In this document: in pieces, positions 1 through 26,572 of the stretch | Layout of the letters: each line of letters opens with the position of its first letter | Position numbering within the stretch: the stretch's first letter is position 1 | NCBI GenBank assembly: GCA_021771695.1 | Contig: JAETON010000018.1 | Coordinates: forward strand, 1 to 49,247 | Direction: 5' to 3' | DNA from: Lachnospiraceae bacterium | Lineage (GTDB): Bacteria > Bacillota > Clostridia > Lachnospirales > Lachnospiraceae | Length of the DNA: 49,247 bases | Notes under the pieces: generated by a model | Databases searched by the model: none | Seen by the model: only the letters and a program-made list of their open reading frames with translations | What the model was told of the DNA's origin: nothing | Made by a program: the position numbers and the translations under genes

Positions 1-88
1 ATTTTACTGTTATCATTAACTTTGTAAAGTAGTTAATACTTTCAAATCCTACCCCTCTTGAGGATGAAAATCCTCTCCTTATTGTTTT

Positions 89-126
89 AAAAAGAAAGAA
101 CCGGCCAAGGCCGGTTCTTTCTTTTT
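89..126. terminator. Strong bidirectional terminator after the PTS operon
   Basis: A perfect 18-bp inverted repeat (89-106 and 109-126) with a 2-base loop. The stem core is CCGGCC/GGCCGG, flanked by an A-rich and a T-rich arm, so it can work on either strand. It lies about 40 bases past the stop of the minus-strand dehydrogenase at 165 and probably ends the PTS-aldolase-dehydrogenase transcript. Positions 1-88 hold nothing I can identify. Confidence 0.9.
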
Positions 127-164
127 AAAGGAGTTTCATGAGATAACTGATCACTACTCACCAT

Positions 165-1214: not shown

Positions 1215-1227
1215 ATTTTCACCTTCC

Positions 1228-2397: not shown

Positions 2398-2409
2398 ATA
2401 ATTCCTCCT

Positions 2410-3288: not shown

Positions 3289-3310
3289 TGATTATTTCTC
3301 CCTTCACCGC

Positions 3311-4150: not shown

Positions 4151-4165
4151 AGATAAATCCTCCTT

Positions 4166-4909
4166 TTAACCCTGTACTTTCTCTCTGCGCAGGAAAGTAA
4201 TTAACAGTGCCATACATACTCCAAAAATTGCTGCTGCCATTACGCTGATCTTGAGATACTGTACTGCAAAGAACCCAAGAATAAAAAATGGAAGATAAAT
4301 ATTTTTTCCAATAATAAAAATCGTAATTGCAAATCCTAATGCTGGCAGCGTTCCTCCTGTCACAGACAAACCATGTGTCAGCCATTCTGGAATTACATTT
4401 AAAATCTTCTGTACTACATCGGACCCTAAATAAATAGCCGCAAATACCGGAGGAAATCTTAAAAAGAATCCAAGAATCATCGGATATAAGATTGCACACC
4501 GCTCAATTCCTTTTACATCTGCTTCCATTGCATATTTGTCTGCTTTATGGGCAAAAACAGCCTGAATCGTTCTTCGGATCTGATCTTGGAAAACACCTAA
4601 TAATCCAAAAGGAACTGCAAGTGTTACTGCGGTTGCCGGATCAATTCCTGTTGTCAATGCAATTGGAATCGAAATAACACCTGCCAAACATTCATCCGCC
4701 GGGATATTCGCACCTGCTGCTACCATTCCCAAATAAACCATTTCTACACTTGCTCCAATCATCAATGCAGTGGTTACATCCCCGGCAATGATTCCAAATG
4801 GCAGTGCCATAACAATCGGCTGGCAAATGACCGCATGAAATGTATATCCAAGCTTACTTTGTCCAATCCAGTACCAAAGACCTGCAACTAATGCCAATAC
4901 AAAAACCAT
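4166..4909 (-). CDS. PTS mannose/fructose/sorbose family IIC component
   Basis: A 247-residue, strongly hydrophobic channel component of a mannose-family PTS. Typical stretches are GQSKLGYTFHAVICQPIV, the AGDVTTALMIGASVEMVYLG segment and ANIPADECLAGVISIP, which recur across IIC-Man/Sor proteins. It sits between the upstream IIB and downstream IID genes with about 20-base gaps. There is only one IIC in the operon although IIA and IIB are both duplicated. The sugar cannot be read from the sequence. Confidence 0.93.
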   Translation of the reverse strand: MVFVLALVAGLWYWIGQSKLGYTFHAVICQPIVMALPFGIIAGDVTTALMIGASVEMVYLGMVAAGANIPADECLAGVISIPIALTTGIDPATAVTLAVPFGLLGVFQDQIRRTIQAVFAHKADKYAMEADVKGIERCAILYPMILGFFLRFPPVFAAIYLGSDVVQKILNVIPEWLTHGLSVTGGTLPALGFAITIFIIGKNIYLPFFILGFFAVQYLKISVMAAAIFGVCMALLITFLRREKVQG

Positions 4910-4928
4910 AAAATCTCTCCTCTCTTAT

Positions 4929-5420
4929 TTACCCTTCAAAGGTCTTTACAATCTTATCAAAATCCATCCTAGGTTCTTCCGGAATGATATGAATATATAC
5001 TTCTGTTCCATTATTCTTTAATTCCTTTAATCCATCCATATCTTCCTGATTCATAGATACCGCTCTTAAAATAGTAACTCTCCCCGGAGCACTTGGAAGT
5101 CCGCCAATTTGAAGCTTCTCTATAGGAACTCCTTTTGCAGCCAAACGCCGGCAGGATTCTACATCTTTAAACAGCAGCATAATCCGTCCTTCTCCCATTT
5201 GGTTTTCCTGCCAGTTTTGAGCGGCTTTTTCCACGGATACAATTTCCACTGCAACATCTTTTGGAGCTGCAGCAGCATAAATCATAACCATAAAATCATC
5301 TTTTGCCAGTTCATCATCTACAATAATAATTCGATTTGCTTTTGCAATTTTTACCCACTTTGTAATTACCTGCCCGTGAATCAGACGGCTGTCCAATCTA
5401 ACCAGCGAAATTTTTGCCAT
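4929..5420 (-). CDS. PTS mannose-family IIB component (copy 2)
   Basis: A 163-residue cytoplasmic IIB protein. It passes phosphate from IIA to the incoming sugar through a histidine, His15 in RLDSRLIHGQVITKW. The rest matches the family: IIVVDDELAKD-like strand, LLFKDVESCRRL and a C-terminal HIIPEEPRMDF. It is a diverged paralogue of the IIB at 5829-6299, which carries RIDERLIHGQ. This copy lies next to IIC and IID and may be the main donor, but both keep the phosphorylation site. Confidence 0.93.
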   Translation of the reverse strand: MAKISLVRLDSRLIHGQVITKWVKIAKANRIIIVDDELAKDDFMVMIYAAAAPKDVAVEIVSVEKAAQNWQENQMGEGRIMLLFKDVESCRRLAAKGVPIEKLQIGGLPSAPGRVTILRAVSMNQEDMDGLKELKNNGTEVYIHIIPEEPRMDFDKIVKTFEG

Positions 5421-5429
5421 AGCAACCTC

Positions 5430-5819
5430 CTATTCGTTTAAATTTTTACACGTTTCTATTACTTCTTTTTTAATTGCTTCTACAAGCTCATTTCCCGAAT
5501 ACTTTTCACGCAGTTTCTCTGCGCCAATCAGCATATCCAGATTTAAACCGCTCAATGCGTACACATTCTTCTTTTTCTTTGCATATACAGAAGCTATATT
5601 GGCTGGTGTCCCGCCATAAAGATCCGCCAAAAGAAGTACCTCTTTGCTCTGTCCCATCATTTCTTCGATTCTTTTCATATAATCGGCCACTGCGTCTTCC
5701 GGCATAAGCTCCAATGCACTGCATGAAGAAATTTTTCCAATAATCATTTCCGCTGAAACAATCAATTCTTTCCCCCATGTTCCATGTGTTAATAAAATAA
5801 TTTGTGTTGTTTTTTCCAT
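5430..5819 (-). CDS. PTS mannose-family IIA component (copy 2)
   Basis: A 129-residue IIA protein that takes phosphate from HPr on His12 in ILLTHGTWGKELI. The second hallmark, LLADLYGGTPANIA, is present near residue 63. It starts nine bases after the upstream IIB and is followed nine bases on by its own IIB, so IIA-IIB forms a repeated unit in this operon. Identity to the first IIA (6315-6710) is limited to family motifs, so the duplication is not recent. Confidence 0.92.
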   Translation of the reverse strand: MEKTTQIILLTHGTWGKELIVSAEMIIGKISSCSALELMPEDAVADYMKRIEEMMGQSKEVLLLADLYGGTPANIASVYAKKKKNVYALSGLNLDMLIGAEKLREKYSGNELVEAIKKEVIETCKNLNE

Positions 5820-5828
5820 TTTCGTCTC

Positions 5829-6299
5829 CTATTTCAGCAAATCTGCCGCATATATTTTTTCATTATCCGGCACCATTTGAATATATACATCGATTTTTTG
5901 CTTCATGAATTCTTTTAGAATCGTTTCTTCCGCATCAGAAACGAAAATATTCTGGTATATCTTTTTCTTACCCGGAAAATACGGAAGCCTGCATATATTT
6001 ACTTGTACAACATCCGTTCCCTGCTCAAATACCTGCTGCAATGTCTCTAAATCCTTCATTAAAACAAAACAGTCTTCCTGCATTTTGGATAATTGAGCTA
6101 CCCCGTCCGAGACATTTAAAAACAGAACATTTATATTTCCCGGCAGTGTCATTTCCAACACACTTTGGATAATCGGATCTTTTGCCGTCTCATCATCAAT
6201 TACCAAAATATTACTGCATCCTGTATATTTCAGCCATTTCTGAAGTATCTGACCATGAATCAATCGTTCATCAATACGAAAATATTTTAAATGAGACAT
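5829..6299 (-). CDS. PTS mannose-family IIB component (copy 1)
   Basis: A 156-residue IIB protein with the active histidine His15 in FRIDERLIHGQILQKW. A conserved ILVIDDETAKDPIIQ strand and the C-terminal IQMVPDNEK are typical. It is the second gene of the operon, 15 bases after the first IIA. With copy 2 it gives the permease two possible phosphate donors for one IIC-IID channel. Confidence 0.92.
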   Translation of the reverse strand: MSHLKYFRIDERLIHGQILQKWLKYTGCSNILVIDDETAKDPIIQSVLEMTLPGNINVLFLNVSDGVAQLSKMQEDCFVLMKDLETLQQVFEQGTDVVQVNICRLPYFPGKKKIYQNIFVSDAEETILKEFMKQKIDVYIQMVPDNEKIYAADLLK

Positions 6300-6314
6300 A
6301 TCACTTCTCCTTTC

Positions 6315-6710
6315 TTATCCAATGAACTGCTTTAAGTTGACAATTCCGGATTTTCCATTTTCTAATGCTGCTTCCGGTAATTGAGAAAGCGCCACATTAT
6401 GTCTTTCCTCTAAAACGGAAATCAGCATTGGAAGATTTAATCCGGTCACGCATTGAATATTCTCATCTCTCAAACAGGATGCCGCCACATTACATGGACT
6501 TCCTCCCAAAAGATCTACCAAAACCATCACTCCGTCACCATCATCCAGCTCTTTCGATTTTTCTTTTACTTTCACCAAAAGGTCCCGTACATCATCTCCG
6601 TAATTCAAAGTTAATGCTTCCACTTTTTTTTGATGTCCAAAAACCAATTCCATGCTTTTGATGATTGCTTCACTGAAATTGCCATGAGTAACAATCAATA
6701 CTCCAATCAT
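6315..6710 (-). CDS. PTS mannose-family IIA component (copy 1)
   Basis: A 131-residue IIA protein, first gene of the PTS operon. Phosphorylation would be at His9 in VLIVTHGNFSEAI, and the VMVLVDLLGGSPCNVA motif follows near residue 66. Its leader is short: the sigma-54 -12 element lies about 45 bases upstream and an AGGTGAGGTG ribosome binding site precedes the ATG. A IIA protein of such a permease commonly also controls the partner LevR activator by PTS phosphorylation (family knowledge); which of the two copies would do so here is unknown. Confidence 0.92.
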   Translation of the reverse strand: MIGVLIVTHGNFSEAIIKSMELVFGHQKKVEALTLNYGDDVRDLLVKVKEKSKELDDGDGVMVLVDLLGGSPCNVAASCLRDENIQCVTGLNLPMLISVLEERHNVALSQLPEAALENGKSGIVNLKQFIG

Positions 6711-6753
6711 TCTTTCACCTCACCTTCTTTTATATTCTTATACCATAATTAAT

Positions 6754-6770
6754 AGCAAATACTGTGCCAA
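6754..6770 (-). promoter_or_regulatory. Sigma-54 (-24/-12) promoter of the PTS operon
   Basis: On the minus strand the sequence reads TTGGCACAGTATTTGCT: a TTGGCAC -24 box, a five-base spacer and a TTGCT -12 box, a near-perfect match to the sigma-54 consensus TGGCAC-N5-TTGCA/T. Transcription would begin about 12 bases downstream, some 30 bases before the first IIA start codon. A LevR-type activator gene next door and rpoN 6 kb away support the reading. Confidence 0.88.
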
Positions 6771-6771
6771 C

Positions 6772-6794
6772 TTAGTGTGTCGTTTTTTGACACA
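6772..6794. promoter_or_regulatory. Candidate activator site upstream of the PTS sigma-54 promoter
   Basis: An inverted repeat TGTGTC-N7-GACACA (6776-6781 and 6789-6794) directly upstream of the -24 box. The 14-base piece at 6772-6785 is repeated exactly in front of the transketolase promoter (12567-12580), and the 11-base piece at 6782-6792 recurs in front of rpoN (12607-12617). The repetition suggests a binding site for the LevR-like regulator. It is unusually close to the promoter for a sigma-54 enhancer, so another regulator is possible. Confidence 0.55.
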
Positions 6795-6826
6795 AAAAGA
6801 GCAGACGCTTTTTTACATCTGCTCAA
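6794..6826 (-). terminator. Terminator after the LevR-type regulator gene
   Basis: A 7-bp stem GAGCAGA (6799-6805) / TCTGCTC (6818-6824) followed on the minus strand by five T residues. It lies about 15 bases past the regulator stop codon and separates the regulator transcript from the PTS promoter immediately downstream. Its T-tract abuts the candidate activator site. Confidence 0.75.
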
Positions 6827-6839
6827 TTCTTCCATTCTT

Positions 6840-9584
6840 TTATTCATTTGTGTCCGTAATCATCTCAACTAAATATGCAATTTCTGTATCTGCAATGGCT
6901 ATATGCATCATCTGTTCCAAATCTGAAAATGCTTCTTTTATTTTTTGGAATTCTTTTGGAAATTCTATTTTTAAACTCTCCATCTGTTTATGAATGAGAG
7001 TTTCTCCAATTACCGTTCTTTCCACCATACATGCCGCATGTACCATATAACGTAAATATAATTCTTTGCTGTTTTTCCATTCAAAATCTTTCATAATATA
7101 TTCGTAAGAATAAGATAACAGAGGAACTATTTTTTCAGGATTTAAAAAATTCAACATCCCCCGCAGCGTTTCAACCAAAATACTTTCATTTACTTCTGCC
7201 TTTGGTTCATCTGCCCGGAAAGGAGTTTCCGAAATCAACTGTTCTAAACGCTTCATCCCCGATCCCACAATCAGCTGGTCTATGGAGATAAACGGCACCT
7301 GCTCCAATTGAATATCTACCGTTCCAACAACTGCCGCAATATTTTTCCATGGAATATTTTCAATATCTTTCTGTATATCTGATGCATGATTAAAATCCAT
7401 GCATTGAATAGAAACCAAATCTTTCATATTCTGCGGGAGCATTTCATAAATCATATCTTTAATTTTTACTGCCGTCCCTTGCCCGGTAAAACATGTTGCA
7501 ATTATAGTTTTTTGTTCCATACTGCATGGCTCCATACCGCTGGAATCTTTCCCTAATAACATATTACCTGCATCTTTTAAATCATCTGCAAGTTCATCTA
7601 AGGTGACTCCTTTTAACATAGATTTTCGGACAGCTTCAATCACTGTAGCTGTTGATGTCATAGAAATTGTGCGGATATGTACCTCTGTTTTTTGCTCAAT
7701 GATTTCTCCAAACATTGTCAGAGAGCCCATATCTACCAGCAAAATTACGCCCTTTCCTTCATCTGCATCCTTCACCAGTTCTATAGCCTTTTCCAGTGTC
7801 GTTTCTACAGACACATTCAACGGCATATCCACTGCTTTACAATGATCTGTATCCAACAGCTGATTTACTACATCTGCCATACTGGTTGCTGTAGTATTGC
7901 CATGTGCTAACACAATTACACCTACATGCTTTTGTGCTTCTTTGTCATCTGCTGCACATAAAAACATGGTCAAATAACCCAGTTCTTGATTTGGAATTTT
8001 TAAATCTAATTCTTCTTCCAACAGCCGTAAAATAATTTTTGCCACCCGAAACTCTTTCGGATGATTCAATGCAGTTTCTTGAATTCCCTCGCCTTTTAAT
8101 GGAATTCCTTTATTTAACCGCTCCACCATTGCATTCACATGCATCGCCATGCCGATTTTTGATTGGTCACTCAACTTACGATTTAATTTTACTTCTGCAA
8201 ATTGAATCACTTCTTCCACTGCATAATAGACTTTAGAATCAATAATTTTCAGCAGATTTTTCATGCCGTCTTCTTCATTTTTTACATGATATTTTTCCAT
8301 AAGAAGTTTCATATACTCATCTAAATCTTCTTGAAGCACCCCGGTAATCTGATCTTCGCTTCTTCCCTGCGTTTTAAATACTTGATATTTTGCAGAAATA
8401 ATATCATACAATGTTTCTTCTTGATCATTTCCAGATTTGCCGTCATCGAATATATGATAATAATCTGAATACCGCAGAAATTCAATCAAATCATTTCGTG
8501 CTTTTTGATGTTCTAACCGTCCGGTTTGAATATATTCCGGCAGTACATTTAAACCGATTGTAACACACTCTAAATTTTCTATTTTGTATTGCAGAAAAGC
8601 TTTTGCACACAGCAGCTGTACATCTGCCTGCAGCTGCCCAATATTCCCAGAACATCGATACAAAAGCAGTGCAATAATCACTTCTTTAAACACACGGATG
8701 GGAACTCCAATTTTCTTCTGCTCATTACTGAAAAATGTTTCTATCAATTGAAGACGTTCCACCAATGGCCGCTCTTCTAATGCGGGAAGTTGAATAACTA
8801 CCGGCATTCTTCTTAAAAATGTTTTTAATAAGGAGGTATTTACATTTTCTGTGGTTGCTCCAATAATTAACACACTTGCTTTGCGAAGTTCCTCCGTTTC
8901 TCCTAGTCTGCGGTACACACCCTTGTCCATCAGTAAAAATAATATTTCCTGTCCCTCCGGCGGAAGCCGGTGGATTTCATCTAAAAACAAGATGCCGCCA
9001 TCTGCTTTTTCCACCAGCCCCTGTTTGTCTCGTTCTGCTCCCGTAAATGCTCCCTTTTTATGTCCAAACAGTTGAGACAAAATCAATTGAGGATTTTGTG
9101 CATACTCTGCACAGTTAAAAACAATAAATGACACACTGTCATCAATGGCTCCAACTTTCACCGCATATTCATACAGCTTTTCTGCAAATGTTGTTTTCCC
9201 GGTTCCTGTAGGACCAATCAGCAATGTATGCAATCCTCGCGGCGGATACAGCATTGCAGATCTTCCCTGCTCAATCTGTGCTTTCAAAGAACCATTCTGG
9301 CCAATCATAAAATCAAATTCAAACCGAGAAGTTTCTTCCTCTAGTTTCCGCTGCTTTTCAGCTTCCAAATATATTTCATATTGGGATGTCTCCATAAAAT
9401 ATACCGGTCTTCCTCCGATTTTCACAATCCGGCCTTCCCGTACCAGTTCATTCAAATCACGGCTGACATTGCTTCGATTCAGTTCAAGCTCTTCGGATAT
9501 GGTAATCGAATCGACGCCTGTTTTTTCTTCCTGATTTTCTACAAGCCGGCAAACACACTGATAAATTTTTTCTTTTCGATTCAT
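6840..9584 (-). CDS. levR: LevR-family sigma-54-dependent PTS-regulated activator
   Basis: A 914-residue LevR-type activator. Domain order from the N terminus: winged-helix DNA-binding domain (about 1-70); AAA+ sigma-54 activator domain with Walker A GPTGTGKT (about 124-131), GAFTGA loop contacting sigma-54 (178-183) and Walker B GGILFLDE (196-203); first PRD (about 445-550, His in AMHVNAMVERL); IIA-Man-like domain with LAHGNTTATS (His about 562); IIB-Gat-like domain with ATCFTGQG (Cys about 699); second PRD (about 805-910, His in YMVHAACMVER). In the family, phosphorylation by HPr and PTS enzymes tunes the activity. All key motifs are intact. It lies downstream of the transketolase genes and just upstream of the operon it should control. 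Confidence 0.93.
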   Translation of the reverse strand: MNRKEKIYQCVCRLVENQEEKTGVDSITISEELELNRSNVSRDLNELVREGRIVKIGGRPVYFMETSQYEIYLEAEKQRKLEEETSRFEFDFMIGQNGSLKAQIEQGRSAMLYPPRGLHTLLIGPTGTGKTTFAEKLYEYAVKVGAIDDSVSFIVFNCAEYAQNPQLILSQLFGHKKGAFTGAERDKQGLVEKADGGILFLDEIHRLPPEGQEILFLLMDKGVYRRLGETEELRKASVLIIGATTENVNTSLLKTFLRRMPVVIQLPALEERPLVERLQLIETFFSNEQKKIGVPIRVFKEVIIALLLYRCSGNIGQLQADVQLLCAKAFLQYKIENLECVTIGLNVLPEYIQTGRLEHQKARNDLIEFLRYSDYYHIFDDGKSGNDQEETLYDIISAKYQVFKTQGRSEDQITGVLQEDLDEYMKLLMEKYHVKNEEDGMKNLLKIIDSKVYYAVEEVIQFAEVKLNRKLSDQSKIGMAMHVNAMVERLNKGIPLKGEGIQETALNHPKEFRVAKIILRLLEEELDLKIPNQELGYLTMFLCAADDKEAQKHVGVIVLAHGNTTATSMADVVNQLLDTDHCKAVDMPLNVSVETTLEKAIELVKDADEGKGVILLVDMGSLTMFGEIIEQKTEVHIRTISMTSTATVIEAVRKSMLKGVTLDELADDLKDAGNMLLGKDSSGMEPCSMEQKTIIATCFTGQGTAVKIKDMIYEMLPQNMKDLVSIQCMDFNHASDIQKDIENIPWKNIAAVVGTVDIQLEQVPFISIDQLIVGSGMKRLEQLISETPFRADEPKAEVNESILVETLRGMLNFLNPEKIVPLLSYSYEYIMKDFEWKNSKELYLRYMVHAACMVERTVIGETLIHKQMESLKIEFPKEFQKIKEAFSDLEQMMHIAIADTEIAYLVEMITDTNE

Positions 9585-9671
9585 ATCTTCTGCCCTTCCT
9601 TTCGCTATGTCTTATTTTATCACATCCTGCTGGATTATCACAGCCGGCAGATATTATCCGAAGATGGAAAT

Positions 9672-10685
9672 TTATTCAAATGTTACAATGCCTTTAATAT
9701 AACCTCTCGGATTGGTTTCAAGTAATTCAAATGCCCGGTTGATTTCCCGTACCGGAATTCTATGGGTAATTAATTCTTCTGTTGGAAAAATCCCATTGGC
9801 ATAAGCTTCCACCGCTTTTTTCAGCACATCCATATAATCATCACAATACCATGGATGCACCACATGAATAATCGGAGAACGGTACATCATGTTATATGCC
9901 ATTTCTTCTGTGAATACCTCATTTTTTGTATACATAGATGGTGCCAAAATCTTTCCTTTCCCTGCAATTTTCACAATCTGCAGTGCAGATGCCAATCCTT
10001 TTAGACTTCCTGTAATTTCAATGACAACATCGAAACCTTTTCCTTTTGTTATCCGCATCATTGCTTCCTGCAAATCTTCCTCTGCCGGACAAATGGTCTG
10101 TGTTGCACCATACTTCTGGGCTAACTGCAGTCTTTCTTCATCAAAATCAATGGCAGTTAAACTTCCAAGGGATTCATTTTTTAATCCGGCAATGGTTAAT
10201 AACCCCATAAATCCACATCCGATGACTGCTGTATGATCTCCAAATACAGGCGCTGCCGCCTGTACAATATTGGCCACGCACATCATTGGTTCCCCAAGGC
10301 AGGCATCCAGCGGTTTTTTAGTTTCCGGCACCTTGATAATTCTTTTATCCTCTTTTAAAATCATATGACTGGTAAAACACTCGGAGGAAACACCAGTTAC
10401 CTTATCTCCCGGAGCAAATTTTGTTACACTTTTTCCTACCTTTTCAACAACTGCAGTTGGTTCATGCCCTAATCCCATTGGATAAGAAACCTCTTTTACC
10501 ATAGCTTCAAACCCTAAAGGATGTCTGCCCATGGCACTGGTCCCAAAATATGCCGGAATATCTGAATGGCACAATCCAACGCTTACCATTTTTAGTAGAA
10601 TTTCATCCTCTTTTAATTCCGGAAGTTCTTCTTCAAATAATTCAAAATGTTTTGGTTTTGTCAATTTTGCAATAATTCTTTTCAT
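9672..10685 (-). CDS. Zinc-type medium-chain dehydrogenase without the structural zinc lobe
   Basis: A 337-residue medium-chain dehydrogenase. It has the catalytic zinc motif GLCHSD near residue 38, GHEPTAVVEKVG near 74, a CLGEPMMC stretch that can supply a further ligand near 130, and a nucleotide-binding VIGCGFMGLL near 154. The four-cysteine structural zinc lobe seen in the other dehydrogenase (165-1214) is missing. It starts three bases after the transketolase C-terminal gene and is clearly in that operon. It probably acts on a sugar or polyol phosphate, by analogy with sorbose-1-phosphate reductase types, but no specificity is claimed. Confidence 0.82.
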   Translation of the reverse strand: MKRIIAKLTKPKHFELFEEELPELKEDEILLKMVSVGLCHSDIPAYFGTSAMGRHPLGFEAMVKEVSYPMGLGHEPTAVVEKVGKSVTKFAPGDKVTGVSSECFTSHMILKEDKRIIKVPETKKPLDACLGEPMMCVANIVQAAAPVFGDHTAVIGCGFMGLLTIAGLKNESLGSLTAIDFDEERLQLAQKYGATQTICPAEEDLQEAMMRITKGKGFDVVIEITGSLKGLASALQIVKIAGKGKILAPSMYTKNEVFTEEMAYNMMYRSPIIHVVHPWYCDDYMDVLKKAVEAYANGIFPTEELITHRIPVREINRAFELLETNPRGYIKGIVTFE

Positions 10686-10688
10686 CCT

Positions 10689-11666
10689 TTATCCTCGCTT
10701 TCTGGCAGCTGCCGCTTTGGCTTTAATTACAATATCCGCTGCTGTTAAATGGAACCTTTTTTTCAAATATTCCATATCTCCCACTTCTCCAAAAACATCC
10801 TGCACACCTACTTTTTCTACTGGTACCGGAATATTTTCTGCAATCACTTCACATACTGCACTGCCAAGCCCGTTATAAATACTATGGTTTTCTGCTGTTA
10901 CAATTGCTCCCGTTTCTTCTGCACACTTACATACCATTTCTTCATCTAGAGGTTTGATCGTAAACATATCCACAACCCTTGCAGAAATTCCATCTTCCTC
11001 CAATATCTGTGCCGCTTTCAACGCTTCCGCAACCATAATTCCTGCTGCAATAATCGTTACATCGGTTCCATTTTTTATAACATTTGCTTTTCCAATTTCA
11101 AATTCAGAGCCTTCCTCATAAATTTTTGCCACTGCTTTTCTTGCACAGCGCACATAATACATTCCTTTTTTCTCTGCCAGCTGGCGGATCAAAGATTTCA
11201 GCATCACCCCATCTGTCGGCTCCATAATGGTTAAAGCCGGAAACGCTCTTAATGCTGCCACATCTTCAAACGGCATATGGGTTCCCCCATTATAAGCTGC
11301 CATGATTCCAGGATCAGAACCAATTAATTTTACATTTGCATCGGAATAGCATCCGGAAATGAAAATCTGGTCATTTGCTCTTCTTGCAATAAATGGAGCA
11401 AAAGAATGGGCAAATGGAATCTTCCCTGCCGCAGATAATCCACAGGCTGTACCAATCATGTTGGCTTCTTGAATGCCACAGTTTATCAATTGCCCCGGAT
11501 ATTTATCAATCTCATCCATTTTTCCGCCCATAATACAGGCTCCAAGATCTGCTTCCAATTCCATAATATCTTTATTTTCTTCCATTAATTTTGTGATTGT
11601 CTCCGCATAAACCTGTGCCATAGTTTGTGTAGATAATTCATGTTCTTTTGCTGTTATAATACTCAT
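10689..11666 (-). CDS. Transketolase, C-terminal subunit (pyrimidine-binding and C-terminal domains)
   Basis: A 325-residue protein holding the second half of a transketolase. It carries the pyrimidine-binding domain with the cofactor-activating Glu in NCGIQEANMIG near residue 66, an AHSFAPFIARRANDQI segment, and a C-terminal transketolase domain with TIIAAGIMVAEAL and AENHSIYNGLGSA. With the product of 11678-12502 it should form a thiamine diphosphate enzyme moving two-carbon ketol units between sugar phosphates. Two-gene transketolases are common in Firmicutes accessory sugar loci. An AGGAGGG site precedes the start, and the gap to the N-terminal gene is 11 bases. Confidence 0.9.
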   Translation of the reverse strand: MSIITAKEHELSTQTMAQVYAETITKLMEENKDIMELEADLGACIMGGKMDEIDKYPGQLINCGIQEANMIGTACGLSAAGKIPFAHSFAPFIARRANDQIFISGCYSDANVKLIGSDPGIMAAYNGGTHMPFEDVAALRAFPALTIMEPTDGVMLKSLIRQLAEKKGMYYVRCARKAVAKIYEEGSEFEIGKANVIKNGTDVTIIAAGIMVAEALKAAQILEEDGISARVVDMFTIKPLDEEMVCKCAEETGAIVTAENHSIYNGLGSAVCEVIAENIPVPVEKVGVQDVFGEVGDMEYLKKRFHLTAADIVIKAKAAAARKRG

Positions 11667-11677
11667 AATTTTCCCTC

Positions 11678-12502
11678 CTAACGATTTAATGCATCAATTG
11701 CATCCTCAGCTTGTTCTTTGGACACATTGATATGATGGTTTTTCAAAATATTTTCTGCAAAAGAGCAGCCTTTTCCTTTGATTGTATTTAACACAACAGC
11801 ATGAGGCTTTCCGTTTCTATTTTTCGCACGTTCAATTGCTGCATCGATTGCTTCCAAATCATGCCCGTCCACTTCTTCTGCTTCCCAATGAAAACTTTCC
11901 AATTTTTCTTTGAAGCTCTCCATATTACAAATATTTGCCGTTGTATTATCTAACTGCTGCTTATTGTTATCTACAAATAAAATTAAGTTATCTAGTTTAT
12001 TTTGTGCTGCGAACATAATCGCTTCCCAATTCTGTCCTTCCTGGCTTTCTCCGTCTCCGATAATACAGTAAATTTGATTTTGATTTTGATCAATTTTTTT
12101 CGCCAATGCAATTCCTGCTGCTACAGAAAGTCCCTGTCCTAAAGAACCTGTCGTCACATCAATTCCCGGTGTTTTTTTATGATCGCAATGGCTTGGAAGA
12201 CTGGTTTGGGGCTGATTTAACGTTTTTAACCAGCCTCTTGGGAAGAAACCTTTCAACGATAATGCTGAATAAACCGCAGGACCGGCATGGCCTTTGGAAC
12301 AAATCAGCCAGTCTCTTTCCTCCCACTGAGGTCTCTGAGGATCAACTTTCATTTGCTTTCCATATAGGACACTCAGCAAATCGCATATACTCATTGCACC
12401 TCCCATATGCCCGAAACCACGAACAGCCATTTGATCAATTGTATGGATTCGTATTTCTTTTGCAAACTGTTCTAATTCTTGTACTTTTTTGTCTGTTAAC
12501 AT
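11678..12502 (-). CDS. Transketolase, N-terminal subunit (diphosphate-binding domain)
   Basis: A 274-residue N-terminal transketolase subunit. The thiamine diphosphate/Mg motif is visible as GDGESQEGQNWEA then FVDNNKQQ (GDG to N, about residues 145-175). Early conserved features are HMGGAMS and CSKGHAGPA. I place the start at 12502 (MLTDKK), preceded by an AAGGAGTG site. The frame stays open upstream to 12619, but that stretch contains the sigma-54 promoter at 12548-12564, so the longer form would have to start upstream of its own transcript. It is the first gene of the transketolase-dehydrogenase-LevR operon. Confidence 0.91.
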   Translation of the reverse strand: MLTDKKVQELEQFAKEIRIHTIDQMAVRGFGHMGGAMSICDLLSVLYGKQMKVDPQRPQWEERDWLICSKGHAGPAVYSALSLKGFFPRGWLKTLNQPQTSLPSHCDHKKTPGIDVTTGSLGQGLSVAAGIALAKKIDQNQNQIYCIIGDGESQEGQNWEAIMFAAQNKLDNLILFVDNNKQQLDNTTANICNMESFKEKLESFHWEAEEVDGHDLEAIDAAIERAKNRNGKPHAVVLNTIKGKGCSFAENILKNHHINVSKEQAEDAIDALNR

Positions 12503-12547
12503 ATGCTTCACTCCTTTTTGCTTATTTTTCTTTCTACTTTTTCTTAA

Positions 12548-12564
12548 AGCAAAACATATGCCAG
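12548..12564 (-). promoter_or_regulatory. Sigma-54 promoter of the transketolase operon
   Basis: On the minus strand the sequence reads CTGGCATATGTTTTGCT: TGGCAT as -24 box, five-base spacer, TTGCT as -12 box. It has one mismatch to TGGCAC. It lies about 46 bases upstream of the chosen start at 12502. A 14-base element identical to one at the PTS promoter sits three bases upstream of the -24 box, which strengthens the call. Confidence 0.78.
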
Positions 12565-12566
12565 TA

Positions 12567-12580
12567 TTAGTGTGTCGTTT
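12567..12580. promoter_or_regulatory. Candidate activator element shared with the PTS promoter
   Basis: The 14 bases here are identical to 6772-6785 and stand in the same place relative to a sigma-54 promoter (two or three bases upstream of the -24 box on the minus strand). Only half of the inverted repeat is conserved at this site. It is a candidate binding site for the LevR-like activator or another shared regulator. Confidence 0.5.
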
Positions 12581-12606
12581 CCTGATAGATTTTGTAATGA
12601 TAATTT

Positions 12607-12617
12607 TGTCAAAAAAC
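12607..12617. promoter_or_regulatory. Candidate activator element in front of rpoN
   Basis: TGTCAAAAAAC here is the same as the minus-strand reading of 6782-6792 at the PTS promoter. It lies nine bases upstream of the TGGCAC box of the rpoN promoter. The A-run makes chance matches easier, so it counts mainly together with the other two sites. Confidence 0.42.
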
Positions 12618-12625
12618 ACAGTTTT

Positions 12626-12642
12626 TTGGCACGATTTTTGCT
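12626..12642 (+). promoter_or_regulatory. Sigma-54 promoter in front of rpoN
   Basis: The plus strand reads TTGGCACGATTTTTGCT: an exact TTGGCAC -24 box, five-base spacer and TTGCT -12 box. Transcription would start near 12654, about 40 bases before the rpoN start codon. This implies that sigma-54 drives its own gene. The -24 boxes of this promoter and the divergent transketolase promoter are about 60 bases apart. Confidence 0.86.
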
Positions 12643-12692
12643 AATATATTTATATAGAAGCAGTTTGTGTACAATCAAAAGAGGTGATATCA

Positions 12693-13991
12693 TTGAATTT
12701 TGCTCAGCAGGCATCTATCATTCAACAGCAGAAATTTACACAGCATCAGATTCAGTCTCTGCATATATTGACTTTGGATAATGTAGAGTTAAATGAATTT
12801 CTTCAAAATGAATATTCTGAAAATCCATTGATGGAGTATTCCGCAGCAAAACAATCTCCTGTCAACTGGAATTCTTCTGCCGCTTCCAGAGATGATTCTG
12901 ATTATCCTGAGATTGCTGCTAAAGATCCTGATACCCTTTTAAACTTTTTTCTAGAACAGTTAAATCCTCGTTTATTCTCTAACCCTGAATGGAATACATT
13001 CAAACTATTGATTTTATTACTGGATGAAAATGGTTTTTTTCCATATACCTCTGAAGATTTATATCAAATGTTCCAAATTTCTCCTGCGGTATCTTCAAAA
13101 TGTCTGGAAATTTTAAGAACTTTACAGCCGCAAGGAGTTTTTCAGCCAAATATAGAAAGCTATCTTCTGTTCCAATTAAAACAAAAAAATACAGCTGATC
13201 CAAATCTGTTTGAATTAATCGAACATCATTTAGAACATGCCGCTTCAAATAAATTTCGATGTATCGCAGATGATTTGCACATTTCCTTACCAGAAGTCCG
13301 GAACCTAATACGGCAGCTAAAAGAATTGTCTCCCCGTCCTCTATCTGGCGGATACCTTGATAATGCTGCTTATATAACTCCTGACATTCTGGCTGTATAT
13401 GAAAATGGACAATGGGATATTTCTTTGAACGATCAATGGATTGGAAATTATTCTTTGAATGATTATTACATCAAAATGATGCATCAATCCTCTGATCCTC
13501 AGCTAAAATCTTATTTCCGCCAAAAATATGAACGGGCAAATTTTATCATTCAACGGATTGAACAACGCCGAACAACCATATTATCTATCTGCCAAGCCAT
13601 CTTTCGGCGGCAGGAAAATTATTTTCTATATGGCAGCTCTTTAGTTCCTATGACGTTATCTGATATTGCTTCAGATTTAGGATTTGCTGTTTCTACGATC
13701 AGCCGTGGAATTAAAAATAAATATTTACAGTATCCTCATGGTACTGTTCTTTTAAAAGATTTGTTTACTTCTGGGATACCCAGCAGTAAAGATACAGACG
13801 TTTCCTGTGCAAAAGTTATTGAAACTATGAAAAAAATTATTGCATCTGAAAACAAGAAAAAACCATACAGCGATAATAAACTAGCAGCTCTTTTAAACGA
13901 AAAGGGAATCAAAATTTCCAGAAGAACTGTTGCAAAATACCGTATGAATGCCGGAATTCCAAGCACGTTGGAAAGAAAAAACGACAGATAG
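12693..13991 (+). CDS. rpoN: RNA polymerase sigma-54 factor
   Basis: A 432-residue sigma-54 (RpoN/SigL), which directs RNA polymerase to -24/-12 promoters and needs an AAA+ activator. Seen: a Gln-rich region I (about 1-45, LNFAQQ...QQQKFTQHQIQSL) that contacts the activator, a core-binding region, a helix-turn-helix around FAVSTISRGIKNKYLQYP, and the RpoN box RRTVAKYR near the C terminus that reads the -24 element. I place the start at the TTG at 12693, six bases after GAGGTG; a GTG at 12684 lies inside that site. Length is close to Bacillus SigL. Its place beside a LevR-driven PTS module, rather than among housekeeping genes, suggests a dedicated role. Confidence 0.94.
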   Translation: MNFAQQASIIQQQKFTQHQIQSLHILTLDNVELNEFLQNEYSENPLMEYSAAKQSPVNWNSSAASRDDSDYPEIAAKDPDTLLNFFLEQLNPRLFSNPEWNTFKLLILLLDENGFFPYTSEDLYQMFQISPAVSSKCLEILRTLQPQGVFQPNIESYLLFQLKQKNTADPNLFELIEHHLEHAASNKFRCIADDLHISLPEVRNLIRQLKELSPRPLSGGYLDNAAYITPDILAVYENGQWDISLNDQWIGNYSLNDYYIKMMHQSSDPQLKSYFRQKYERANFIIQRIEQRRTTILSICQAIFRRQENYFLYGSSLVPMTLSDIASDLGFAVSTISRGIKNKYLQYPHGTVLLKDLFTSGIPSSKDTDVSCAKVIETMKKIIASENKKKPYSDNKLAALLNEKGIKISRRTVAKYRMNAGIPSTLERKNDR

Positions 13992-14013
13992 AAAAATCTA
14001 TCCGCCGTTTTTT
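13976..14013. terminator. Bidirectional terminator between rpoN and recR
   Basis: Stem of AAAAAACG...GATAG (13976-13991) with CTATC...CGTTTTTT (13998-14013), two internal mismatches and a six-base loop. The rpoN stop codon lies in the 5' arm and the recR stop codon touches the 3' arm, so the two convergent genes share it. Confidence 0.78.
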
Positions 14014-16743: not shown

Positions 16744-17433
16744 ATGAATAAATCATATGATCTAACTGCATTTTCACACGAGATAAATAATTCTCTGACT
16801 TTAATTTACAGTCAGCTTCAATATATAGAAGAAACAAAAGATATTCTTTTACAAGATGAAAACTGGTGCAGAATGAAAAAAGATTTTTCTTCTTTATTTG
16901 ATTTCATAAGACAAACTTTATCCCCATCCACTGCAACATCCGCTGCACTTGAACCACAGGACTTAATTTCAATTTTTGAAGAAATCCGTTCATCATGGTC
17001 TCACCAGTTTAACGATAAGCATATTCAATTTTTCATTCAAGCAGAACCAAAAGAATCTTACTATGTATATGGTTCCAAACCCAAACTTCTTCAAATGTTC
17101 CACAATTTAATTTCCAATGCTGTCAAAGCCATTGAACGAAGAAATGATACTGGAAAATCTCCCAGTATTACTGTCCATCTAAGCAAAGAGCAGGGGCATA
17201 TTGTTTTAAACCTATCGGATACCGGAATCGGGATGACAAAAGAACAGCAGCAAAGAGCCTTTTACCGTGGTGTTTCTTTTATTCCTGCCGGAAATGGTAT
17301 TGGGTTGTCCGTTGTTCATGAAATTGCAGATGAACTTCAAATCAAAATTCATATGGATTCTGCCATAAATCAAGGAACTACGTTTACTCTGATTTTCCCT
17401 GCCAGAGAATATACAGAATCAATGCCAGTATAA
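16744..17433 (+). CDS. Small soluble sensor histidine kinase (HATPase_c)
   Basis: A 229-residue histidine kinase without membrane segments or sensor domain. The phosphoacceptor box is FSHEINNSLTLI (His12), the N box HNLISNAVKA (Asn about 125), the G1 box DTGIGM (159-164) and the G2 box GNGIGLSVVH (183-192). It starts almost at its H box, so it must sense through a partner or act as a phosphotransfer protein; the layout recalls Spo0B-like or orphan kinases. No response regulator lies nearby. An AGGAG site precedes the ATG. Its last 50 bases overlap the end of the convergent rhomboid gene. Confidence 0.85.
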   Translation: MNKSYDLTAFSHEINNSLTLIYSQLQYIEETKDILLQDENWCRMKKDFSSLFDFIRQTLSPSTATSAALEPQDLISIFEEIRSSWSHQFNDKHIQFFIQAEPKESYYVYGSKPKLLQMFHNLISNAVKAIERRNDTGKSPSITVHLSKEQGHIVLNLSDTGIGMTKEQQQRAFYRGVSFIPAGNGIGLSVVHEIADELQIKIHMDSAINQGTTFTLIFPAREYTESMPV

Positions 17434-18310
17434 ATCCGCCGATACATCCCCCAATATGGGCAGCGTTATCAGTTCCGCTGCTTTGGAATCCATGATAAAT
17501 GGAGCCTGCAATCATTAGGAAAATACCGCTTCCATTGAAATCACCCATTTGCTTTCTGCAAAACAAAAAAATTGCTGCCAATGCGCCGGTAATCCCAAAA
17601 ATTGCTCCGGATGCTCCCGCAGAAAGCACATCTTCCCCAATGGATGCATAGTAGAATACAGATACAATACTGCCAATCAATCCAGAGCCTGTATAAAGAA
17701 CCAAATATCTGAAACTTCCTATGATTTTTTCTAAACTAGAACCTAAAATACAAAAAACTACCATGTTATTAAAGAAATGATCCCACCCATAATGAAGATA
17801 ATTAGAAGTCAATAATCTATAAAACTGATGCTGTTCCAGCACCATATATGGACTGCAGGCTCCAACGTCATAAATCCTTTCGCCATAGATTTCTGAAACG
17901 GCAAAAAGAATCAAATTGACTGCAGTTATTACTGCGGTCATTTTATATTTTCCAAAAGATTTTTTTACAGGATAACTATTTTTTACTGTATCATTTGCTG
18001 CATTCACAATCATAGAAACCGGTTCATACAATTCTTCAAATTCATTTTCCCAATCTGCAAATGTTACCGTTCCTTCTTCTGACAATACAATGGCAAGCAC
18101 TGGCATTCCCTGCCCAAATATATTTTTCACCTGCATGATCATCTGGGAAATATTTTCTTCTGAAAGCAGACTGCCGTCTGGATTCCGGTCATAAATAATA
18201 AAAACTCCCTTTTTCCCTTCTTTTACATTTTTCATATAATAAGGCCCAATGGGTGTCGTCATTTTTGTATATCCATGAATCTGCAGCAATTCTATAAGTT
18301 TCTGATACAT
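17384..18310 (-). CDS. Rhomboid family intramembrane serine protease
   Basis: A 308-residue membrane protease. About 120 N-terminal residues form a soluble domain, then six or more helices follow. The catalytic Ser is in GASGAIFG (about Ser234), the catalytic His in DNAAHIGG (about His285), and an HFFNNM segment on helix 2 matches the HxxxN-type feature. Rhomboids cut single-pass membrane proteins within or beside the bilayer. It follows the FHA gene by 17 bases at the end of the Tad cluster, so a pilus or TadE-like substrate is possible but unproven. Its 3' end overlaps the kinase gene on the other strand. Confidence 0.92.
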   Translation of the reverse strand: MYQKLIELLQIHGYTKMTTPIGPYYMKNVKEGKKGVFIIYDRNPDGSLLSEENISQMIMQVKNIFGQGMPVLAIVLSEEGTVTFADWENEFEELYEPVSMIVNAANDTVKNSYPVKKSFGKYKMTAVITAVNLILFAVSEIYGERIYDVGACSPYMVLEQHQFYRLLTSNYLHYGWDHFFNNMVVFCILGSSLEKIIGSFRYLVLYTGSGLIGSIVSVFYYASIGEDVLSAGASGAIFGITGALAAIFLFCRKQMGDFNGSGIFLMIAGSIYHGFQSSGTDNAAHIGGCIGGFILALILYILWQGKSE

Positions 18311-18327
18311 AAGTTTCCTCCAGTTTT

Positions 18328-19503
18328 TTAGATAGTATATCTCATGTCCGCAAGAAACTCAAACTCTTCCAATCCTATTTTTAAAACATCTCCTGATTCT
18401 AAACTTTCTTTTTTAATTCTTCTCCCATTGAGTATTGTTCCATTGGTTGAATTTAAATCCTCTGCTGTTAATTCTCCATTTTCCAGAAAAATTTTTACAT
18501 GCCTCCTGCTGACTCCTATTTCTGGTAACTGATAATCCGTCCCCTCATTAGAACTGCCAATAATAAATCCATCATGTTCAATTATAATGTCTTTTCTCCC
18601 TTCTTTTTTGGATATAAATTTTCCCAAAGGCTGCTCCATCAAGCATACTGTCTTTTGTTCATCCATAGATAAATATTCCGTTTTCATTTCCTCTGTTTCT
18701 ATAGGTACTTCTATAGAACCTTGTTTCCAAAATTTCCACATCTGCCAGACATCTGCTGCGAAACCGCCAGCGAATACCAAAAAGCCAAGGACAAATTGGT
18801 AATAGAATCCATAAATAAAGATTTTTACCGCAAAAAAAGCAGATGCACCCAGCAAAAAAAATGAAAATACCATAAAAAATATTGCTATAGGAGATATCTT
18901 TTTCTCTGACAAAGTTTCTTCGTCTAATTCATTTATTTCTTTTTCCGGCGGACTTTCTACTTCTTCTTTCGGAATCATCTGAGGTGTTGGTTTTAAATAT
19001 TCTTTAATTTGAAGAATACTTGGCTTTTCTTTTACAAGATAACTGTGAAACTCATAATAAAATTTTGCTTTTTTCTTATTTTCATAGGATATATGTTCCA
19101 TACTTTCTTCTAATAATTCTCGAATCTGTTCAAAAATATTTTTCTCATAATCCGGCAGATAGCATAAAACAGGCTTCCTCTGCTGGTCTATAAACACCAA
19201 TTTTTCATCAATTTTCAAATGATCTAAATTCAATAAATACTCTTCGGCCTCTTCTAGTACCGTAAAAAAATCAAAAAAAAATTCTTGTAAATTCATCTCA
19301 TTTCTTTTTTCAATCCACGGGGTATAAATTCCCGTTTCAAAATAATAATATTCTGTTTCATCTTCCAGCCGAAGTTCACATGGCAGCAGACATTCCATAA
19401 TATGATGCAGCAAAATATCTTTTTCATATGTAATCTTTCTCTTCTTTTCTACCACATAATAATTAGAAAACCCCTCTCTAATCCATTGTTCCTTCAATGA
19501 CAC
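18328..19503 (-). CDS. Membrane protein with DUF6382-like N-terminal domain and C-terminal FHA domain
   Basis: About 391 residues. The N-terminal 200 residues resemble the DUF6382 domain found in Tad-linked FHA proteins. Two hydrophobic helices lie near the middle (IAIFFMVFSFFLLGA and FVLGFLVFAGGFAA). The C terminus is an FHA domain: IIGSSNEGTDYQL, VSRRHVKI and DLNSTNGTILNGRRI, with the Arg, Ser-Arg-Arg-His and Asn residues that bind phosphothreonine. I take the GTG at 19503, inside the tadE end and just after AAGGAGG; TTG at 19497 is an alternative and the frame stays open further upstream. No Ser/Thr kinase gene is in the window, so the phosphorylated partner is unknown. Confidence 0.82.
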   Translation of the reverse strand: MSLKEQWIREGFSNYYVVEKKRKITYEKDILLHHIMECLLPCELRLEDETEYYYFETGIYTPWIEKRNEMNLQEFFFDFFTVLEEAEEYLLNLDHLKIDEKLVFIDQQRKPVLCYLPDYEKNIFEQIRELLEESMEHISYENKKKAKFYYEFHSYLVKEKPSILQIKEYLKPTPQMIPKEEVESPPEKEINELDEETLSEKKISPIAIFFMVFSFFLLGASAFFAVKIFIYGFYYQFVLGFLVFAGGFAADVWQMWKFWKQGSIEVPIETEEMKTEYLSMDEQKTVCLMEQPLGKFISKKEGRKDIIIEHDGFIIGSSNEGTDYQLPEIGVSRRHVKIFLENGELTAEDLNSTNGTILNGRRIKKESLESGDVLKIGLEEFEFLADMRYTI

Positions 19504-20002
19504 TCCACCTCCTTGCTTTTTCGATTTCTGATAAATATGATATCTGACACTGCCCTTGATATTCAAAAAAACGGATCCCAAAGAATCGGATTCCTTCCAT
19601 TCCCGGTATTGTGATCTTCATTTTTACCTTTGTTTTGATTTGATCTGCAGATACTTTTACAGAAATACTCTGTATCTTTCCTAAAAAAAGATGTGTATTC
19701 AATTCCTTTTGAAGCTGTTTTTTTACTTTCGCTGCTGCCTGCTTTTTCCCCGGATACATATTTTTATAAAGATTTCTTTGATTTAAAGCTCCATATGACA
19801 TTTCACCATTTTCATAACTGCCGTTAGTAATCACAATATCTGCCGCCTTCCATCCGGCGTCTTCCATCGCTCCCTGCACTATTCCGCAATTCATAAAATA
19901 AACTGCATATTCCAAGAACAATAAAAGAATCAAAAAAGCAATCGGAAACAGCAAACTGGCTTCTACTGTGATATATCCGCCTTCTTCCCGCATCTTTGAC
20001 AT
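19478..20002 (-). CDS. TadE-like pilus minor subunit
   Basis: A 174-residue TadE-type protein. The N terminus REEGGYITVEASLLFPIAFLILLLFLEYAVYF has a short charged leader, a Glu five residues after the likely prepilin cleavage point and one long hydrophobic helix. This is the class III signal cut by TadV-type peptidase. The rest is an extracytoplasmic Lys-rich domain with no motif I recognise. The start has an AAGGAGTG site. It overlaps the genes on either side, which suggests coupled translation. Confidence 0.85.
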   Translation of the reverse strand: MSKMREEGGYITVEASLLFPIAFLILLLFLEYAVYFMNCGIVQGAMEDAGWKAADIVITNGSYENGEMSYGALNQRNLYKNMYPGKKQAAAKVKKQLQKELNTHLFLGKIQSISVKVSADQIKTKVKMKITIPGMEGIRFFGIRFFEYQGQCQISYLSEIEKARRWSVIEGTMD

Positions 20003-20829
20003 GGTTTCACTCCTTTCAATGTACTTTTATCTACCTGTTTTACCGTTCTTTTCAACCCGCTGCATGTAAGATCTGTATGATATGCATCTCCTTCTTTCGC
20101 AATATAAAGACAGAAAATATCTCCTTGATGGTATTTGGTACATTTTTCACATTCCTGATAGGATGTTTCCCCTTGCAGATATTTTTCTACATGTTCATCG
20201 ACAGAAATATCCAACGCCAGATGCGTACAATTTAAATCCGTATGATACACGCTTTCATGGGGTGTAATGTAAACAATTCCTTCATTTCTTTCATCTCCAT
20301 CGGGTACATATCCGGTCATTGCCTTCTGCCGGATTTTTTGAGTAAAGGTTCCTGTAAATCCAGAAAGAAACGGCATTCGCTTCTGTATACAATATCTTGC
20401 TGTTAGTACATATTCTCCTTTAGAATTCAGTGCTGTTGCACCAGTAATCAAAATACCTGCACTGCCTCCCGCCAAAGATGATTTATCCAAAAATTTTTTA
20501 TTTACAGAAGCTAAAAAAACTGCTTTTGCCGTTCCATTTTCTACAATATTTTCTGTTTTTTTCTTTTTGGAAATTACATACTCATTGGCTGCCTTCTGAC
20601 ATGCAGCTTCTTCTAACCCATGTCCAACCTGCCCATGAATCATCAGTATTTCACCAGCAGAAACCAGCATTAACAGGGCAATCAAAAACAATGGAAGAAC
20701 TAAACTCGCCTCTAAAGTCATCGCACCTTTTTCCGAGGCAGAAAAAGATGTCCTCTTGGATTTTTTCGTTTCAATATGATTATCATTTTGGTTCGTCTTT
20801 TTAGAGAATTGTTTTTGACAAGAGAACAT
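19963..20829 (-). CDS. TadE/pseudopilin-like protein with two C-terminal Cys/His modules
   Basis: A 288-residue protein; start at 20829 after GGAGGTG. A 30-residue Lys-rich leader precedes a pilin-like segment KGAMTLEASLVLPLFLIALL, again with Glu five after the cut. The extracytoplasmic C-terminal third holds two repeats of the pattern YHTDLxCxxL ... CxxC (first about 193-234, second about 246-283, ending CQRC). The pattern resembles the zinc-binding Ada-type module (YHxxxCxxL...PCxxC). Metal binding is inference. It lies 19 bases after the DUF5702 gene and overlaps the TadE gene by 40 bases. Confidence 0.78.
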   Translation of the reverse strand: MFSCQKQFSKKTNQNDNHIETKKSKRTSFSASEKGAMTLEASLVLPLFLIALLMLVSAGEILMIHGQVGHGLEEAACQKAANEYVISKKKKTENIVENGTAKAVFLASVNKKFLDKSSLAGGSAGILITGATALNSKGEYVLTARYCIQKRMPFLSGFTGTFTQKIRQKAMTGYVPDGDERNEGIVYITPHESVYHTDLNCTHLALDISVDEHVEKYLQGETSYQECEKCTKYHQGDIFCLYIAKEGDAYHTDLTCSGLKRTVKQVDKSTLKGVKPCQRCGKKADISQ

Positions 20830-20848
20830 CTCTTTCCACCTCCATTTT

Positions 20849-22294: not shown

Positions 22295-22452
22295 TTGACT
22301 TGTCCTGTTTTTGATGTAATCGTTTTGAAAATATTATTCACTACTGTTTTGATCTGCGTTTGAAAAATAATAACCAAACCAATTAAAACGACAATAATTA
22401 AAATTACTTCTACTACACCCATTCCTGATTCGTCTTTTAAAAATTTTCTCAT
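22291..22452 (-). CDS. Flp-type (class IVb) pilin
   Basis: A 53-residue pilin. The leader is MRKFLKDESG, then MGVVEVILIIVVLIG: cleavage after Gly10 would leave a mature pilin with Glu5 and one hydrophobic helix, and the tail is short and polar (QTQIKTVVNNIFKTIT...). This is the Flp/Flp1 family layout. It has an AAGGAGG site seven bases from the ATG and lies between tadC and the DUF5702 gene. It is the likely major subunit of the pilus built by this locus. Confidence 0.9.
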   Translation of the reverse strand: MRKFLKDESGMGVVEVILIIVVLIGLVIIFQTQIKTVVNNIFKTITSKTGQVK

Positions 22453-22465
22453 AAACCTTTCCTCC

Positions 22466-26549: not shown

Positions 26550-26572
26550 AAAACACCTTCTTTTGTACCTCG

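Follow-up and report, generated by a model that had tools for sequence, protein, structure and literature searches.

A LevR-PTS sugar island of a Lachnospiraceae bacterium carries rpoN behind a predicted sigma-54 promoter of the island's own type

A Lachnospiraceae contig (the window, that is, the whole stretch of 49,247 nucleotides analysed) opens with a catabolic island of about 14 kb in which a mannose-family PTS, a split transketolase and a LevR-type activator are accompanied by a gene for sigma-54, rpoN. Three sigma-54 sites, a box that they share, a complete RpoN, an activator with the GAFTGA motif, the location of the island and the existence of relatives devoid of rpoN are read directly from the DNA. 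From these we infer that the island has probably captured its rpoN, which would be transcribed by sigma-54 polymerase and activated by the island's own LevR_A, with substrate-gated positive feedback on both the sigma factor and the activator.

The island (module A) comprises the following features, named by profile match unless another basis is given.

1–14011, no strand assigned: the island as a whole, with a HIT-family gene (end of contig C79) on one side and recR on the other, from contig overlap and genus comparison
165–1214, minus strand: zinc-type dehydrogenase, which closes the PTS operon
1228–2397, minus strand: iron-containing alcohol dehydrogenase
2410–3288, minus strand: class II ketose-bisphosphate-type aldolase
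3311–4150, minus strand: PTS EIID
4166–4909, minus strand: PTS EIIC, named by eye and from phmmer relatives
4929–5420, minus strand: PTS EIIB (second copy), named by eye and from phmmer relatives
5430–5819, minus strand: PTS EIIA (second copy), by phmmer, best match module-B EIIA, 56 bits
5829–6299, minus strand: PTS EIIB (first copy), by phmmer, best match module-B EIIB, 76 bits
6315–6710, minus strand: mannose-family PTS EIIA, which opens the PTS operon
6840–9584, minus strand: LevR/DagR-type sigma-54 activator (LevR_A), with an AAA+ domain bearing GAFTGA, PRD (2 stretches) and an EIIA-man domain
9672–10685, minus strand: zinc-type alcohol/polyol dehydrogenase
10689–11666, minus strand: transketolase C-terminal subunit (tktC)
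11678–12502, minus strand: transketolase N-terminal subunit (tktN)
12693–13991, plus strand: rpoN (RpoN_A), 432 aa, with activator-interacting, core-binding and DNA-binding domains; TIGR02395 at 337.4 bits, cut-off 277.35

The PTS operon runs EIIA-EIIB-EIIA-EIIB-EIIC-EIID-aldolase-Fe-dehydrogenase-Zn-dehydrogenase and the transketolase (tkt) operon tktN-tktC-dehydrogenase-levR_A. RpoN_A is complete, with PF00309, PF04963 and PF04552 all matched and the RpoN box SRRTVAKYR. LevR_A is of the LevR (PRD) type, combining GAFTGA in its AAA+ domain with PRD and PTS EIIA-like domains, and LevR/DagR-type sigma-54 control of mannose-family PTS operons is a known family. Its score against the DagR equivalog of NCBIfam (621.5 bits) is below the cut-off of 1400, and an NCBIfam scan of nine other proteins placed none over its cut-off. 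The levR_A gene begins 87 bases past its neighbour, and since this gap holds one weak sigma-70-type match (0.7 expected), levR_A may have basal expression plus sigma-54 read-through. The PTS operon (4929–6710) has two EIIA-EIIB pairs per one EIIC-EIID, likewise its sister at L214, and one of the pairs may serve LevR signalling, not transport. Further along the window, beyond dnaX (17384–26690), lies a stretch of secretion/pilus-type genes named by eye (rhomboid-, FHA-, TadE/TadB/TadC- and CpaF-like).

Three sigma-54 sites are placed to serve the island, scored out of 16 and with predicted transcript starts placed 12 bases past the GC of each.

6754–6770, minus strand: putative sigma-54 promoter of the PTS operon, TTGGCACAGTATTTGCT, score 16, predicted start about 6743
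12548–12564, minus strand: putative sigma-54 promoter of the split transketolase operon, CTGGCATATGTTTTGCT, score 15, predicted start about 12537
12626–12642, plus strand: putative sigma-54 promoter of rpoN, TTGGCACGATTTTTGCT, score 16, predicted start about 12653

The initial annotation had proposed two divergent sites about 60 bases apart in the 190-base tkt/rpoN intergenic region and a third for the PTS operon, and all three were found as placed. The rpoN-facing 16-mer (TGGCACGATTTTTGCT, 12627–12642, plus strand, preceded by T) has no mismatch to TGGCAC-N5-TTGCW, the tkt-facing one (TGGCATATGTTTTGCT, 12548–12563, minus strand) has one, 63 bases separate the two, and the PTS site (6754–6769, minus strand), upstream of the first EIIA gene, has none. 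The T of the tkt site is no defect, as one study (PMC6615313) takes TTGGCATN5TTGCT for its Clostridiales consensus. Transketolase starts with ATG at 12502 and rpoN with TTG at 12693, preceded by AGAGGTGAT; ahead of this start codon the rpoN site presents GG at −24 and GC at −12 in the spacing and direction expected of a sigma-54 promoter. When the intergenic region was shuffled 20,000 times with dinucleotides preserved, a full-score site arose on either strand in 1 shuffle, 25 shuffles reached 15 or better, and none did so on both strands at once. Over the whole window the pattern at two mismatches or fewer is found 31 times (shuffle mean 22.55, sd 5.10; 5 of 100 shuffles reach 31), which is near background, so that only the best sites count.

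These figures bear on the simplest alternative, namely that rpoN is constitutive from a sigma-A promoter and the −24/−12 site is a minor, chance or decaying match. So good a site is rare among the shuffles, and a sigma-70-type scan of 12400–12692 returned no plus-strand match upstream of the rpoN start at the tool's threshold, although in a region of 29% GC sigma-A promoters are easily missed; we regard this alternative as unlikely. Some sigma-A transcription of rpoN is nevertheless conceivable because a −10-like TATATA, poorly spaced, was seen by eye just downstream of the sigma-54 site. The same element would suit a brake, in which unactivated sigma-54 holoenzyme at the rpoN site blocks an overlapping sigma-A start, and R. 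leguminosarum is quoted in PMC3538637 as a case of negative rpoN autoregulation. The activator gene and the two sibling promoters with a like box in the island favour activation instead, and with no sigma-A match at threshold a brake is very improbable.

Four elements lie just ahead of these promoters.

6771–6799, minus strand: inverted repeat with GACACA/TGTGTC arms (11 bases each, 82% complementary), candidate activator or operator site
6772–6785, minus strand: box immediately upstream of the PTS promoter, AAACGACACACTAA, from repeat comparison
12567–12580, minus strand: box upstream of the tkt promoter, AAACGACACACTAA, identical to the PTS box, from repeat comparison
12616–12620, plus strand: ACACA box, 10 bases upstream of the rpoN 17-mer, from comparison of module promoters

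The 14-mer AAACGACACACTAA has exactly two copies in the window, each just ahead of a −24/−12 site (PTS and tkt), and relatives of module A carry ACACACTAAG and ACACACAAAG (genome G007) or ACACACTATG (G003) at the same place. Outside ACACA the rpoN box is degenerate (ACACAGTTTT vs ACACACTAAG), which counts against the favoured reading. ACACA stands exactly 10 bases before the 17-mer at the rpoN site and at four of the five other module-A promoters (three species), the spacing at the window's tkt site being 11 bases, and it is absent from the last 40 bases of all 12 promoters of other LevR modules. This common spacing ties rpoN to the LevR_A set, and its module specificity speaks against the constitutive alternative. 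GACACA/TGTGTC hexamers occur three times in 200 bases at the PTS promoter (shuffle mean 0.08) and once each at the tkt and rpoN promoters, at neither of which this exceeds chance. Most Clostridiales UAS are placed 100–250 bases upstream in the part of PMC6615313 available; the window's boxes and hexamers lie within 85 bases of their promoters, a location beside −24 that is unusual for an activator site, and the boxes may therefore bind something else. A clean UAS for LevR was sought in the module promoters and not found, and the lack of a clear distant UAS likewise weighs against the favoured reading. TGTGTC hexamers do occur 107–138 bases upstream of module-B-like promoters; as these lie inside the 3' end of levR, regulatory and coding constraint on them are inseparable. 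Another LevR-PTS promoter, in G007 (L222:7410–7525), has a candidate UAS upstream of it: within 94 bases stand three TGTGTC hexamers, each part of a TGTGTCAAA repeat.

Few rpoN genes have a sigma-54 site immediately before them. Sixty rpoN loci were collected and 58 scored (L106 and L115 lack upstream sequence), and at two of them, the window and L089, the sequence just before rpoN has a site scoring 15 or above; the other 56 lend weight to a sigma-A promoter for rpoN. As a control, the rpoN loci contain 547 other genes that encode 200 aa or more, of which 23 have a site of this score and none the mirrored pattern. The rpoN of L089 is the best other match of RpoN_A in 299 genomes of the family (45% identity); this locus belongs to another genus, its site occupies 823–839, and no PTS gene was recognised within 12 kb. 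In other modules a sigma-54 site heads a run of genes in which rpoN comes later. Counted over whole gene runs, such a site is present at 6 of 11 full-length rpoN loci of the genus vs 4 of 47 outside it (Fisher p 0.0017, the loci being related; one genus locus was added by hand, the partial L087 set aside, L125 not listed, and loci cut by contig ends counted as without a site).

The host genome (116 contigs, 99.96% complete, 3.14% contamination) encodes two full rpoN genes, each inside a module with one activator and one PTS and each in a transcription unit headed by a sigma-54 promoter; a genome search found no rpoN outside the two modules. Module B (L011) reads P54-EIIA-EIIB-EIIC-EIID-rpoN followed by an oxidoreductase gene, with rpoN as fifth gene and its own levR upstream. 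GAFTGA activators number two, both LevR-type (LevR_A and LevR_B). Exact TGGCAYN5TTGCW occurs at nine sites (mirrored control 1), four of them the promoters of modules A and B and the other five inside long open frames; the same mechanical test for frames also places the tkt site within two, an upstream extension of tktN and one antisense to it. A wider scan at one mismatch or fewer gave 16 sites (mirrored control 7). Three sets of candidates were discarded: a third rpoN at C43:109681 (a weak Pfam match below cut-off inside an ORF that by eye resembles an insertion sequence), a third exact TTGGCACN5TTGCT site at C43:107083 (inside a membrane-protein-like gene), and five further weak PF00158 matches with no GAFTGA-like motif.

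The scan of the genome that had been suggested for other activators and promoters thus yields one other GAFTGA activator and, among exact TGGCAYN5TTGCW sites, one other promoter in context, both in the rpoN-bearing module B, and the restriction of exact TGGCAYN5TTGCW promoters in context to the two rpoN-levR-PTS modules argues for the favoured reading. The view that rpoN sits with one LevR-type activator and its targets and faces a sigma-54 promoter of the module's own type is upheld; as a module gene rpoN is indeed inside its own module, but it is one of two rpoN genes in the genome. With two systems in one cell, the rpoN promoter might be real and yet served mainly by RpoN_B and LevR_B, in a hierarchy, not a closed loop. 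Canonical −24/−12 elements in both modules make cross-recognition plausible, a hierarchy would solve the priming problem, and G007 has one rpoN beside six activators. The two sets are nevertheless distant (RpoN_A and RpoN_B 31% identical, LevR_A and LevR_B 28%), and the rpoN_A site ends in TTGCT and has the ACACA box whereas the module-B site ends in TTGCA and has none, so that a hierarchy also seems improbable.

Comparison within the genus (11 genomes, own included; strong activators taken as those with E below 1e-30) shows that a full rpoN is present in seven genomes, the same seven that have at least one strong activator, and the four rpoN-less genomes have none, a pairing in line with the favoured reading. 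Full rpoN genes and strong activators number 2/2 in G000 and G001, 2/5 in G003, 1/1 in G004 and G005, 2/3 in G006, which has in addition a partial rpoN, and 1/6 in G007. The modules themselves exist with and without rpoN: it is missing from two of three copies of module A and four of seven of module B, and on this ground rpoN resembles a component that sugar modules have taken up. In module B it lies between EIID and the oxidoreductase gene in three genomes (L011, L079, L083), where the logic of module A recurs by way of the operon that P54 heads, and these two genes are adjacent in four (L216, L217, L218, L219), where tblastn with both RpoN proteins as queries found nothing. Among the relatives of module A, L214 (G007; LevR_A relative 1061 bits) has levR and the PTS operon, with neither tkt nor rpoN, and sigma-54 sites both at the place matching the window's PTS promoter and directly ahead of its levR. 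L215 (G003; LevR_A relative 1067 bits) has no PTS operon in its stretch and no rpoN, and presents TTGGCATGGTTTTTGCT ahead of tkt-tkt-dehydrogenase-levR, at the position of the window's tkt site. G003 (L081) and G007 (L088) show a third design, in which P54-EIIA-rpoN diverges from levR; L081 was added by hand, as too long a frame had been called for its EIIA. In G006, a partial rpoN at L087:9377–9889 (a frame of about 170 aa with the end of the DNA-binding domain) lies beside levR and a PTS and is perhaps the remnant of a module-borne rpoN, and a second rpoN closes an eight-gene run (L086:9299–16222) headed by a weaker sigma-54-like site (score 14.5).

Site counts are to be read in this setting. 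Exact TTGGCAYN5TTGCW occurs 2 to 9 times per genome in the four rpoN-less genomes and 2 to 10 times in the seven with rpoN; the four together have the true pattern 21 times and the mirrored one, a weak control, twice, and 6 of 10 of their exact sites inspected fall outside frames of at least 180 aa. Exact sites being as many where rpoN is lacking, a lone site proves little and a census of sites is without force absent context; this counts against the favoured reading and in favour of a constitutive rpoN. What gives the site evidence weight is where the sites lie, which way they point, how they cluster and the box that they share.

The position of the island in the chromosome was reconstructed from a contig overlap. 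The last 116 bases of C79 are window 1–116, with the HIT gene 266 bases from the end of C79, and rpoN and module A follow recR in the window; given this overlap, the module of about 14 kb most likely lies between HIT and recR. In nine genus-mates (G010 was left out as its contig ends too soon) the recR-HIT distance is 0.35 to 0.94 kb in eight and 4.1 kb in G008, and tblastn found no relatives of LevR_A, RpoN_A, tktC or EIIC_A between the two genes. A foreign origin of RpoN_A is not favoured, since in a tree built from 58 RpoN proteins it nests within a genus clade of 8 rows (99/94); the module-B RpoN forms a separate clade (100/100). The RpoN_A branch is long (1.11 vs a median of 0.53), as would be expected had RpoN_A been released from other duties.

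On the favoured reading, a catabolic island of two operons acquired its rpoN as a copy of the sigma-54 gene resident in the genus, and this copy came to lie under a promoter of the island's own type. The PTS substrate would change the phosphorylation state of LevR_A, phosphorylation being a known means of LevR control, and LevR_A would then activate RpoN-polymerase at three promoters, those of the PTS operon, of the transketolase operon, which ends in levR_A, and of rpoN. Sigma and activator would rise together through two positive feedback loops, low without substrate, that may give a sharp, possibly hysteretic, switch. For priming, sigma would have to be supplied by basal leakage, by RpoN_B of module B or by a weak sigma-A start. 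The feed-forward loop first proposed is thus recast mainly as positive feedback (on rpoN, and probably on levR via the tkt operon), with feed-forward only a part of it. Sigma-54 as a module-specific switch, also proposed, is not supported: in G007 the only rpoN lies in a comparable PTS module in a genome with six strong activators. A stronger version, in which each sugar cassette owns a portable, private sigma-54 along with its activator and promoters, the two systems drifting into insulation, is tentative and in our judgement doubtful. The same single rpoN beside six activators in G007 speaks against insulation. A lead in its favour is that module-B promoters end in TTGCA in all three genomes with rpoN_B in the operon and in TTGCT in all four without, a change at −11, where the Rhodobacter sphaeroides promoters discussed below are also said to differ, and one that may be a single event since the genomes are related. 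A link between the −11 base and the HTH residue after His (E or other), examined by eye, fails across the family.

A close parallel is prxS-rpoN2 of rhizobia (Rhizobium etli, Mesorhizobium loti), an operon activated by NifA, with a further weak, symbiosis-specific promoter between prxS and rpoN2 in R. etli, according to the part of PMC3538637 available. As here, a second rpoN belongs to a functional gene set (the symbiosis island in M. loti); its sigma-54 promoter answers to the set's activator, as we propose for the sugar island; unlike here, that set concerns nitrogen fixation with NifA and a separate rpoN1 remains, whereas the present case is a sugar island with a PRD activator. LevR/DagR-type PTS control likewise joins a PRD/EIIA-bearing GAFTGA activator to a mannose-type PTS under a −24/−12 promoter, but here rpoN lies inside the module and is apparently a target. 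In the available part of PMC6615313, 57 Clostridiales genomes are given a single sigL each, and in that of PMC12316311 more than one rpoN is reported in about 5% of the organisms studied. The latter also finds rpoN enriched in Clostridia among genes with sigma-54 promoters, taken as autoregulation; in the part available this is a class-level enrichment, without module, activator or capture. Rhodobacter sphaeroides similarly divides several sigma-54 genes by function, its RpoN1 and RpoN2 promoters being said to vary only at −11, while capture by sugar modules and self-drive are absent from the available part of that account (PMC3162934). No title or abstract on a module-borne rpoN in Firmicutes was found in the open-licence literature searched. 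Autoregulated, operon-borne rpoN2 in rhizobia and predicted autoregulation in Clostridia are thus already known; the LevR-PTS form, the two such modules in one genome with no other rpoN found, and the sister modules with and without rpoN go beyond them.

Sigma-54 is usually treated as one global factor serving many activators. Here it seems to be an exchangeable part belonging to individual sugar modules, and the sister modules with and without rpoN offer a natural experiment on why a pathway owns a sigma factor and how a self-driven sigma is primed, which bears as well on the insulation of two sigma-54 systems in one cell.
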